Of a DNA stretch of 64,000 bases, positions 13,400 through 62,970 are shown one piece after another. Position 1 is the first letter of the stretch. Every line of letters begins with the position of its first letter. The notes below the pieces were generated by a model that was not told the DNA's origin, did no database searches, and saw nothing but the letters and a program-made list of their open reading frames with translations. The DNA lies in the NCBI RefSeq assembly GCF_001465795.2, contig NZ_CP013659.2, positions 3,406,501-3,470,500 of the forward strand. The letters are read 5' to 3'. The translations under genes and the position numbers were made by a program. This DNA is from Planococcus rifietoensis. Its GTDB lineage: Bacteria; Bacillota; Bacilli; Bacillales_A; Planococcaceae.

Positions 13400-13515
13400 G
13401 AGGCGCTTCAGGCGGACGCTTTCCGCGGGCATGGCTTGAGCCTCCTCGGTCGCTTCGCTTCCTGCGGGGTCTCAAGACTCATGCTATTCCCGCAGGAGTC
13501 GCCGCCTTCCGCTTT
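13400..13515 (+). repeat. Palindromic intergenic repeat R1 (CTTTCCG/AGGAGTC type)
   Basis: This imperfect palindrome of ~115 bases has left-arm elements GGCGGACGCTTTCCGCGGG and right-arm elements CCCGCAGGAGTCGCCGCC, with GAGCCTCCTCG and CGGGGTCTC inside. Elements of this look are widely scattered in intergenic DNA of Bacillaceae and Planococcaceae (recalled, not searched). A relative occurs at 62850-62970. It lies between flhB and flhA with no open frame of its own. It would form a strong hairpin in the flagellar transcript but has no U-tract, so it does not look like a normal terminator. Confidence 0.8.
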
Positions 13516-13532: not shown

Positions 13533-13656
13533 GGATATGGAGCAAAACAGCGCAGACTCCTGGGGGATCAGCGAAGTGCTGAAATCCATTCGGGCGCCTA
13601 GCCCGAATTAGTTCAGCGCGAGCCCCCCGGAAAGCCAGCTGTTTTGCGGAATATCC
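13533..13656 (+). repeat. Palindromic intergenic repeat R3 with long inverted arms
   Basis: A second, unrelated palindrome follows R1. Its outer arms pair GGATAT-N4-CAAAACAGC with GCTGTTTTG-N4-ATATCC. Internal arms pair CTGGGGG with CCCCCGG, AGCG..TGCTGAA with TTCAGCGC, and CGGGCG with CGCC..CCCG around the centre. It is a single copy in this window. The resulting transcript hairpin is long and GC-rich and sits 55 bases before the flhA start, so it could protect or process the operon mRNA; that is inference. Confidence 0.75.
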
Positions 13657-35582: not shown

Positions 35583-35653
35583 CTTTTGAGAGGATTATGC
35601 AGATATAAAGATAGAAGTTGAAATTTAGTGATTACAATAGCTTGCGCTATGAG

Positions 35654-35791
35654 ACTTCGTTTCAGGGGGCTGCTTTCCGAGGGGCGGGTGTTGAGCCAAT
35701 GTGCGGCAAAGAGAGCCGCACATTTGTCTCGCCAGCCCGCGCGGTCCCTCAGGAGTCAGCCCCCTTCCACTCCGTCTCTAGTTTTAGAGTG
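35654..35791 (+). repeat. 138-nt palindromic leader repeat, copy A
   Basis: It is about 95% identical to 45250-45389. The outer stem pairs CAGGGGGCTG with CAGCCCCCTT. An inner hairpin pairs TGTGCGGC with GCCGCACA; copy B has TGTACGGC with GCCGTACA, a compensatory change. Copy B also carries one extra G and one extra C in the outer stem. The element resembles the CTTTCCG...AGGAGTC palindromes at 13400 and 62850. It contains no credible gene. Confidence 0.88.
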
Positions 35792-35940
35792 AAAGATCAT
35801 TTTTTGCTCATTAAATATTAAATGTAGAAACAATTCAGGTTTTCTAGCTCAAGTTATCTTTGGAGTAGAGAAGCGAGCTAATCCTGATACTGCCACCAAC
35901 ATTTTCGACTAAAGCACAAATGTGCCAGACACTACATCAC
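35792..35940. other. AT-rich spacer between leader repeat and hairpin array A
   Basis: No gene or recognised signal. The corresponding stretch in cassette B (45390-45540) is different in sequence apart from scattered words such as TAGCTCAAGTYATCTT, so only part of the spacer is repeated. Confidence 0.4.
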
Positions 35941-36021
35941 AGGAGGCGATTCCCCCGCTAGCCGGCAACTGACTAAAGAAGCAGACCTAGTTGAACGCAC
36001 CTTAGGCAATGAAATCACTCA

Positions 36022-36107
36022 GCCGCCGAGCGACAAGGGTGAGCCGACGCAGTAAGACAAGTGTCCTTCTTGGCTTGCTGCCAAAGGCCAACCCAAAGCA
36101 CGGCGGC
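36022..36107 (+). repeat. Covarying hairpin core A1
   Basis: Nested stems: GCCGCCG/CGGCGGC outside, GGGT/ACCC and GCC/GGC in the middle, then GCAGTAAG-A-CAAG with CTTG-G-CTTGCTGC around the loop TGTCCTT. The closing pairs differ from cores A2, B1 and B2 in a compensatory way. Strand of function, if any, is unknown. Confidence 0.8.
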
Positions 36108-36263
36108 GACTACTCAGGCGAAACTCAAACAAAGGCAAAAACAATTCGACAAGTAAACTCTCACTAGCTTCTAGCTTCTTATACATTTCTTCCGGGAAGC
36201 GATTCCCCAACTAGCTACAGAAGCCGGACTGACTAAACATTCTTCACTCAATGAAATCACTCA

Positions 36264-36350
36264 GCCGCCGAGCGTAAAGGGGTGAGCCGATGCCGTAAGC
36301 CAAGTGTCCTTCTTGGCTTACGGCTAAAGGCCAACCCAAAGTCCGGCGGC
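36264..36350 (+). repeat. Covarying hairpin core A2
   Basis: Same fold as core A1. The apical stem is a perfect 13-bp helix, GCCGTAAGCCAAG with CTTGGCTTACGGC around TGTCCTT; the outer stem is GCCGCCG/CGGCGGC. Confidence 0.8.
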
Positions 36351-36507
36351 GACTACTCAGACGAAACTCAAACAGAAGCAAAAACAATTCAACATCTAAA
36401 CTCCCACTATCTTTTCCAATCATGTCCCGGGAAGCGATTCCCCTACTAACCTGAAGCTCCGATAGAACATCAAACACATTTCCACAAGTTAACCCTCGCT
36501 ATCTTCA

Positions 36508-45048: not shown

Positions 45049-45060
45049 GATTTCAAAATC

Positions 45061-45101
45061 CATAGTTTTTTATAGAGGGTGGAATGCTATGAACCTCTCC
45101 C
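45061..45101 (-). ncRNA. preQ1-I riboswitch aptamer
   Basis: Minus-strand sequence GGGAGAGGTTCATAGC, then ATTCCACCCTCT and ATAAAAAACTATG. It matches the preQ1-I consensus: the AGAGGTTC/ACCCTCT stem and the A-rich 3' tail that forms the pseudoknot. It precedes queF and the queuosine transporter gene. Confidence 0.95.
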
Positions 45102-45129
45102 GTTGCCGGGTTATTTAATTTCCTGCCTT

Positions 45130-45249: not shown

Positions 45250-45389
45250 ACTTCGTTTCAGGGGGGCTGCTTTCCGAGGGGCGGGTGTTGAGCCAATGTA
45301 CGGCAAAGAGCGCCGTACATTTGTCTCGCCAGCCCGCGCGGTCCCTCAGGAGTCAGCCCCCCTTCCACTCCGTCTTTAGTTTTAGAGTG
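45250..45389 (+). repeat. 140-nt palindromic leader repeat, copy B
   Basis: Counterpart of 35654-35791, same orientation. The outer stem is one G and one C longer, and the inner hairpin reads TGTACGGC/GCCGTACA. It lies just upstream of the queF promoter on the opposite strand side and leads into hairpin array B. Confidence 0.88.
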
Positions 45390-45540
45390 GAAGAGCATTT
45401 CTTCATTCTACTTGATAAAAGATGTGAAAATGTGTCGGGCTTTATAGCTCAAGTCATCTTGATTAATAAAGATGTAATTGTAAATTCTATTCCGATTATA
45501 AACTTTCTATTCAAGCATCTTAAACCTAGACGCCACATCC
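45390..45540. other. AT-rich spacer before array B, no gene seen
   Basis: No recognised signal. Short words such as TAGCTCAAG are shared with the spacer of cassette A. Confidence 0.4.
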
Positions 45541-45622
45541 CAGGAAGCGATTCCCCCACTAGCCGGCAACCGATTATAGAAGCAGAGCTATCTAATCATG
45601 CTCCACACATTGAAATCTCTAA

Positions 45623-45708
45623 GCCGCCAAGCGCCACGGGTGAGCCGACGCCGTAAGACAGGCGTCCTTCCTGGCTTATGGCAAGAGGCCAATCCAAAGC
45701 AGGGCGGC
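45623..45708 (+). repeat. Covarying hairpin core B1
   Basis: Outer stem GCCGCC/GGCGGC, middle GGGT paired with ATCC (one wobble), apical GCCGTAAG-A-CAGG with CCTG-G-CTTATGGC. CAGG/CCTG replaces CAAG/CTTG of the other cores, a compensatory change. Confidence 0.8.
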
Positions 45709-45869
45709 GACTACTAAACTGAAGCACAAATAGAATTACGGAACAATGAGACAAGCAACCCCTCGCTATCTTCTCACACGCTCGATCTGGGAAGCGATTC
45801 CCCCGCTAGCCGGCAACTTTATATAGAAGCAGATCAATTTAATCATGCTCGATACATTGAAATCTTTAA

Positions 45870-45955
45870 GCCGCCCAGCGCCACGGGTGAGCCGACGCAG
45901 TAAGACAAGTGTTCTTCTTGGCTTACTGCCAAAGGCCAACCCAAAGCAGGGCGGC
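45870..45955 (+). repeat. Covarying hairpin core B2
   Basis: Outer stem GCCGCCC/GGGCGGC, where cores A1 and A2 have GCCGCCG/CGGCGGC; apical stem GCAGTAAG-A-CAAG with CTTG-G-CTTACTGC around TGTTCTT. Confidence 0.8.
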
Positions 45956-46033
45956 GAATACCAACATGAAGCTCAACTAATGAACAGGAATGATTCCACA
46001 AGCAAACCCTAACTATCTTCTTTTCCAGCAAAT

Positions 46034-57939: not shown

Positions 57940-58190
57940 AGCGCCACATGAAAAAACGTTGAATAAGAAAAGTAGCGCATGGATAGCTTCTGACAGAGAG
58001 CCGGGGAACAGCTGGAAACCGGTGTTGCACATGCGTGAATGGACTTATGAGTGGCCATCTGAAAAGAAGGCCCGTCTGCCCCGCGTTATTGGGGTTCAAG
58101 TGGAAGCTGAGAGCTTCAAGATGAGGTGGCACCGCGGTCGATCCGTCCTCTGTACGAAATGATCTTATTTCGTGCAGGGGGCTTTTTTTA
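57940..58190 (+). ncRNA. T-box leader, tryptophan specific
   Basis: Hallmarks of a T-box riboswitch: AAAAGTAG S-turn region at stem I, CGCATG/CATGCG stem I helix, specifier loop TGAATGGA with UGG at 58040-58042, and the T-box TGGCACCGCGGT at 58127-58138. The terminator stem TCTGTACGAAAT with ATTTCGTGCAGG lies at 58147-58188 with a T-tract. Uncharged tRNA-Trp would pair with UGG and the T-box bulge to allow readthrough into trpE. Confidence 0.93.
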
Positions 58191-62849: not shown

Positions 62850-62970
62850 TTCCGAAGCTTATCGCTCGCTTTCCGTGGGGCGGGAATCGAGCCTCCTCGT
62901 CACTGCGTTCCTGCGGGGTCTCTCAAACCCGCTAGTCCCACAGGAGTCGAGCGAATGCTTCTCCAAATAC
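62850..62970 (+). repeat. Palindromic intergenic repeat R2 (CTTTCCG/AGGAGTC type)
   Basis: Shares CGCTTTCCG, GAGCCTCCTCG, CTGCGGGGTCTC and CAGGAGTCG with R1 at 13400. The core arms TCGCTCG (62862) and CGAGCGA (62948) pair. It lies between the two identical terminators. Confidence 0.78.

Follow-up and report, generated by a model that had tools for sequence, protein, structure and literature searches.

A dispersed family of structured repeats was identified in Planococcus rifietoensis. In the window (the whole 64,000-nt stretch of DNA that was analysed) the family is present as two arrays of two units each, and the four cores of these units are copies of one rod of about 86 nt, the conserved part of a tandem unit of about 247 bp (profile built from the repeat). 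The fold of the rod is conserved, the family is dispersed, its units turn over and its arrays are placed away from divergent gaps. The best reading, to which a probability of about one half is given, is that of a non-autonomous, chromosomal family of dispersed structured repeats that is kept by its fold and would be handled as single-stranded DNA (ssDNA) by a trans-acting enzyme.

The original prediction described an 86-nt hairpin present in four copies. The four cores were found where it placed them (36022, 36264, 45623 and 45870), all on the + strand, and all of the pair-preserving stem differences quoted for them are present in the sequence. What did not stand is the length of the repeat, which is that of the whole tandem unit, with a hairpin and a leader ahead. 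In both arrays the order of parts is a hairpin termed H1 (about 125 nt), a leader (about 165 nt) and the units. Each unit is laid out as a hairpin resembling GGGAA-GCGA-TTCCC, a spacer, the rod in the middle and a second spacer. The features of the two arrays are as follows (bits are scores with model R1, and each of the four scored copies was used in building R1).

35653..35776, + strand, H1 hairpin (CTTTCCG...CAGGAGTC type) at the head of array 1 (sequence read; H1 alignment work)
35777..35940, + strand, leader of array 1, from H1 to the first unit (sequence read; 19 of 38 upstream regions aligned)
35941..36193, + strand, unit 1 of array 1: hairpin with GCGA loop, spacer, rod, spacer (repeat comparison, profile)
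36022..36107, + strand, rod core of unit 1, array 1 (fold z -5.9; 121.7 bits)
36194..36428, + strand, unit 2 of array 1 (repeat comparison, profile)
36264..36350, + strand, rod core of unit 2, array 1, 87 nt (fold z -7.4; 116.5 bits)
36429..36507, + strand, 3' remnant of a further unit of array 1, with start hairpin and tail and without rod (repeat family D3; sequence read)
45250..45374, + strand, H1 hairpin at the head of array 2 (sequence read, repeat comparison, H1 alignment)
45375..45541, + strand, leader of array 2 (sequence read; upstream-region alignment)
45542..45788, + strand, unit 1 of array 2 (repeat comparison, profile)
45623..45708, + strand, rod core of unit 1, array 2 (fold z -3.5; 115.9 bits)
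45789..46024, + strand, unit 2 of array 2 (repeat comparison, profile)
45870..45955, + strand, rod core of unit 2, array 2 (fold z -5.6; 123.2 bits)

Within array 1, positions 36037-36170 match 36280-36413 over 134 nt at 88%, and within array 2, positions 45543-45732 match 45790-45979 over 190 nt at 85%. The arms of H1 carry GTACGGC/GCCGTAC in array 2 versus GTGCGGC/GCCGCAC in array 1. Of the marks of a MITE (terminal inverted repeats and target duplication), inverted repeats of at least 20 nt were absent from the array 1 region, and those of the array 2 region are the H1 arms only; the search for a target duplication is described with the window sites below.

Folded alone, the four cores adopt the same rod, with energies of -45.4, -53.6, -42.1 and -46.3 kcal/mol for the copies at 36022, 36264, 45623 and 45870, respectively; the z values listed above were obtained against 200 dinucleotide shuffles of each core. 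The minus strand of two tested cores folds about as well (z -3.6 and -5.5), so energy alone cannot tell the strand. The module under selection measures about 105 nt and is a one-strand rod with several helices. It consists, in order, of an outer stem (GCCGCC(G)/(C)GGCGGC), a GC/GC step, a GGGY/RCCC stem, a 2x2 mismatch loop, a GCC/GGC stem (AGC/GCT in some units), a purine-rich internal loop (GAN facing, in most cases, NRGA or NRAA), an upper stem of 12 pairs with one mismatch (mostly A.G, in TAAGAC/GGCTTA) and an apical loop. The apical loop is mostly TGTTCTT or near in Planococcus, and longer and variable in genus g33. Conservation is lowest in the outer stem, where 72.9% of the cells pair in alignment A3 (described below). 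The near-constancy of the unpaired words, which had been noticed in the four copies, extends across genera for the words of the internal loops, and each pair takes several states across genera.

Covariation was measured in two alignments. Alignment A1 contains 124 distinct cores of the own genus, taken from 143 profile matches after partial and duplicate matches were dropped. Alignment A3 contains 106 modules, drawn from the own genus, g21 and g33, and was fitted to the structure model. In A1, 16 of 28 pairs have changes on both sides and 95.1% of the cells pair, whereas pairing falls to 28-44% in a control with the partners slid by 1-3 columns. The corresponding values for A3 are 23 of 28 pairs with double changes and 91% of cells paired, with 28-40% in the slid control. 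None of 500 shuffles gave a double-change count as high as the observed one. Since A3 was fitted to the structure, the modules were also realigned with MAFFT alone, free of structure; covariation ranks six rod pairs first among the 5253 column pairs of this alignment, and 11 of the top 20 are rod pairs. The ranks held by non-pairs include columns 35/83 and 35/84, which lie across the 2x2 loop and change between GA/CA and TA/AT as a correlated mismatch change. Under a tree-based null (a home-made stand-in for R-scape, in which substitutions are replayed) only two pairs, both stem pairs, reached E<0.05. This result counts against a strong covariation claim, and the null is a poor one because its tree is built on 106 columns and because the units exchange pieces. 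The covariation looked for in a larger alignment was thus found in the pair counts and in the structure-free ranks, but the tree-based null left it significant at two pairs only. Many copies from several genera, set against slid and shuffled controls that are far lower, support the original prediction of selection on a single-strand fold, either RNA or ssDNA. The strand as drawn (+) is favoured by the excess of G.T cells (60) over A.C cells (24), a ratio of 2.5 compared with a mean of 1.27 and a maximum of 1.48 in 500 shuffles.

The genome that holds the window gave 73 matches by BLAST and 83 module matches with the covariance model R2, so the four copies of the window are not due to chance. 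The 83 matches form 43 arrays, with one module (13 arrays), two (23), three (5), four (one) or five (one). These arrays are spread over the contig except for 1.32-2.13 Mb (about 0.8 of 3.5 Mb), which holds none. If base 1, where the contig starts with genes reading as glycogen genes, is assumed to be the origin, and only then, 26 of the 43 arrays are co-directional with replication. A subfamily, B, has a spacing of about 216 bp and is without the usual form of the GCGA start hairpin (by reading of the sequences).

A search of Planococcaceae genomes with a covariance model, as proposed in the original prediction, found the module in 89 of 261. These R1 matches came from a search with strict filters and at most 15 candidates scored per genome, and they cover 5 of 19 genera and all 46 genomes of the own genus; ten of the positive genomes, searched more fully, hold 2 to 90 copies each. 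R2 was also run on 398 genomes drawn from the class: it matched 20 of the 39 that belong to the family (membership counted by eye, from lists) and none of the 359 others. A pattern scan of named contigs gave 108 stretches, and the 80 listed are all from Planococcus, P. citreus, P. maritimus and P. maitriensis among them. The assembly of modules varies. In one genome of the own genus (G014) seven consecutive modules are spaced at ~150 bp. Those g33 loci that were inspected carry two kinds of module back to back, as divergent pairs around an AT-rich centre. This centre is conserved, with TTATAATGTGATTACT or near in most of them (six aligned; L150, L151, L153, L154, L156, L163), and it could be a candidate promoter site. 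The only plasmid match was NZ_CP025126.1 (L089), a Planococcus record of 7049 bp with genes reading as chromosomal, which may be a misassembled piece of chromosome.

The units turn over at fixed sites. Among 14 genomes of the genus, including the own genome, the two window sites (1.5 kb of flank each) hold 0 to 4 units, and a module is present at each of the two sites in 13 of the 14 close genomes. More distant matches to the flanks (15 and 16 loci) were without a module by DNA profile, which may miss divergent modules. An empty site with clean ends or a target duplication was found at neither site. Array 1 in genome G011 has one unit fewer than in the window (by reading). Same-site divergence was drawn from 8 of the 14 genomes at locus 2 and from 5 at locus 1. 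The last unit of locus 2 shows 0.135 in the core, 0.202 and 0.296 in the spacers and 0.072 in the neighbouring coding DNA, and that of locus 1 shows 0.117 in the core, 0.188 and 0.094 in the spacers and 0.066-0.072 in the coding DNA. The last units thus diverge more than the coding flank, which indicates that units are exchanged or replaced in place. It follows from unit exchange that part of the covariation within a genome reflects whole variants that were swapped rather than repeated mutation; the differences between genera are taken not to be of this kind.

This turnover, which is faster than that of the flanking DNA in both unit number and sequence, would also be expected of a passive palindromic repeat that expands by recombination or slippage and has no recognising factor. 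Its covariation would come from unit exchange, which moves both arms of a pair together, or from templated correction of the arms. Such an origin is quite unlikely, however, given the several states per pair across genera beside nearly constant internal-loop words, the tolerance of G.T over A.C on one strand, and a core at locus 2 that diverges less than either spacer; locus 1 is mixed in this respect, its core value lying between those of its spacers.

The gene surroundings were analysed for 38 arrays, which come from the first profile search and overlap with, without being identical to, the 43 arrays found by R2. All 38 are intergenic by simple ORF calls, that is, longest-ORF guesses of at least 100 aa with ORFs of <600 bp inside arrays dropped as spurious; the array at L033:9247 shares 124 nt with a called ORF. 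They lie between co-directional genes (24), in convergent gaps (13) and in a divergent gap (1), compared with 60 tandem, 11 convergent and 26 divergent among 97 nearby control gaps. Convergent gaps are therefore in excess (13 of 38 versus 11 of 97, p 0.005) and divergent gaps are avoided (1 of 38 versus 26 of 97, p 0.0008). The downstream gene of array 1 was taken as co-directional; a 160-aa ORF on the - strand would make this gap convergent. No neighbouring protein is constant: after clustering of 243 flanking ORFs, none accompanies more than 7 of the 33 loci. Five ORF clusters touch at least 3 of the 33 loci. Two of these consist of ORFs within arrays, and the largest cluster (7 loci) reads as ABC ATPases by eye. 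A coding repeat was rejected, as the six frames of 37 units yielded six open frames, about the shuffle level, and this answers in part the case in which the repeat would be a fragment of a coding sequence.

A cis-regulatory leader or riboswitch would be expected ahead of genes, and 17 of the 38 arrays do lie upstream of a co-directional gene, but the other 21 face the 3' end of the next gene, no gene family stands beside more of the loci than the limit given above, and Rfam returned no match for the repeat; this explanation is barely credible. A search of the window against Rfam gave only a T-box leader at 57950-58153 (+) and a PreQ1 riboswitch at 45056-45103 (-), the latter upstream of a gene reading as queF by translation, and both are outside the arrays. 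Around array 1 the best match had E 0.2, far below gathering. Membership of an Rfam family was rejected at the gathering threshold, in agreement with the earlier statement that the fold is not a known riboswitch or ribozyme.

HEARO / IscB omega RNA is a large structured element in many copies, and in this it resembles the repeat. HEARO-type RNAs can also occur away from the nuclease gene, so the modules might serve as scaffold RNAs of an RNA-guided nuclease (IscB/TnpB, HEARO-like) that acts in trans. The repeat differs in having no Rfam match, and around array 1 no HEARO match appeared even at E<=10; this role is rated as very improbable.

A transcribed non-coding RNA would read H1, leader and array as one transcription unit, with tandem rods that bind a protein or ligand repeatedly as a sponge or scaffold. 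The conserved purine-rich internal loops of the rod are in its favour, as are the GNRA-type loop on the unit-start hairpin (80 of 104 matching stretches by a loose pattern, chance matches included), the fold of a 571-nt stretch of H1, leader and unit (z -4.4), and the direction of the arrays between co-directional genes, 16 of 24 of which point with the genes. That last proportion is not significant (p 0.15), however. Promoter-like sites on the + strand were found at neither array 1 nor array 2, and over the 38 arrays such sites are not in excess (the best score averages 7.84 of 12 on either strand, and 7.69 in shuffles). A terminator-like site lies between the upstream gene and array 1, and some 40 loci per genome with changing unit numbers would be unusual for one RNA gene. 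An RNA of this type is rated as rather unlikely.

For the preferred reading, in which the rod is handled as ssDNA, the orientation of the arrays is informative. The eight arrays that are antisense to both neighbours, array 2 of the window being one, are equally intact, with a median of 192 bits (18 units) versus 158 and 186. Because promoters are lacking and arrays antisense to both neighbours are intact, it is somewhat more likely that the rod acts in ssDNA than in RNA; the choice between the two, like the acting enzyme, is one that we infer. Against it, the purine-rich internal loops and the GNRA-type loop suit RNA equally well. In the proposed mechanism, the rod would be recognised as single-stranded DNA during replication, in repair or as a cruciform by a putative trans-acting enzyme, which would seed new arrays, and recombination between the direct repeats would then expand, contract and exchange the units.

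Candidate partner enzymes were compared with the distribution of the repeat. The Y1 transposase domain (Y1_Tnp) does not track it: the domain was detected in 29 of the 46 genomes of the genus and in 18 of the family's 19 genera, versus 46 of 46 and 5 of 19 for the repeat. Reverse transcriptase (RVT_1), which a group II intron or other retroelement would call for, occurs in 11 of the 46 genomes and not in the own genome. A Y1 transposase or a reverse transcriptase as constant partner was rejected, since the presence of neither follows the repeat. A phage or viral element was likewise rejected: the repeat had no match in 50,697 phage records, and two patterns of the module gave none in viral contigs. 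One viral contig holds the H1 pattern. The possibility that the repeat is a transposon fragment is answered in part by these searches, which covered the two enzyme types and, for the module, the phage and viral records.

In bacteria, dispersed repeats are as a rule short palindromes linked to a transposase. REP/BIME elements go with RAYT (Y1) transposases (PMC3733652). The present family resembles them in consisting of folded repeats that are dispersed between genes and clustered in tandem or inverted order (43 arrays of 1-5 modules here, divergent pairs in g33), but it differs in its module of ~105 nt with several internal loops, in contrast to a palindrome of 20-40 bp, and in a presence that does not follow Y1_Tnp. 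The REP/BIME foot GTAG/CGTC has no counterpart as a constant tag by eye in A1 and A3; GTAG occurs inside the rod of some g33 modules. The family may be called BIME-like in behaviour. The bcr1 and Bhal-1 families of Bacillales are intergenic stem-loop repeats with tens of copies and conserved predicted structure (PMC2267715). They share these properties with the present family; tandem arrays of ~247 bp are not among the features given in the passages on them (PMC2267715). Bhal-1 could be related to H1. The STAXI motif (PMC2864571) is likewise structured and in tandem, but it is described as pseudoknots near DNA-handling genes, whereas the rods lack such a recurrent neighbour. No description of the repeat was found in the open full text of the literature, where sequence words rarely appear in the text.

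It is possible, though doubtful, that the family represents a new class specific to Planococcaceae, in which a putative new enzyme would recognise a multi-loop rod of ~105 nt in single-stranded form (DNA or RNA) and the modules would be assembled differently in each genus (in tandem behind H1 in Planococcus, as divergent pairs in g33). A large multi-loop fold that is kept across genera without an obvious enzyme points to a putative recognising protein. The covariance model and the natural set of variants are a ready means to find such a protein, and the repeat would be a useful annotation family for Planococcaceae genomes.

The H1 hairpin accompanies many of the arrays. Of 32 H1 matches found in the own genome, 27 precede a module on the same strand by 115-375 nt; counted by arrays, 27 of the 43 have H1 just upstream. 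An alignment of 17 copies has 546 of 558 cells paired and double changes at 9 of 33 pairs (e.g., CTTTCC/GGAGTC versus CTTGCC/GGCGTC); it covers 17 of the 38 arrays, 18 having been caught by a word pattern and one long copy dropped. In other species and genera, a simple word test placed an H1 at only 4 of the 29 array starts. An H1-like edge pattern, CTTTCCGCGGGC...CCGCAGGAGTC, was present in 43 of the 398 class genomes (21 of 145 genera), also in genera without the R1 module such as g18, and a reversed control pattern gave no match. The eight matches of this pattern in the own genome are kilobases from any array and are not the H1 of arrays, so its kinship with array H1 rests on the common edges. 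Hairpins of this type occur in Bacillales genomes; a paper describing them was not found in open full text, where the word CTTTCCGCGGGC matched one unrelated paper. Two H1-type hairpins stand back to back in the window without a module array, at 13400-13510 (+) and 13545-13645 (-), and one more CTTTCCGTGGG word at 62869 (+) is a possible H1-type hairpin.

A palindromic element of about 100 nt, CCCACATCTGC..GCAGATGCGTCGC, was observed within the rod or module of four units (L031:3944(-), L033:3895(-), L047:3677(-) and L059:3654(-)) and within one, perhaps two, H1-type hairpins (L061:3137(+), L031:7654(-)), as if it targeted hairpins. Six of 17 word matches are so placed, and the other 11 look like chance. 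Related inserts were seen in L048 and L062, and split matches in L088, L173 and L206.
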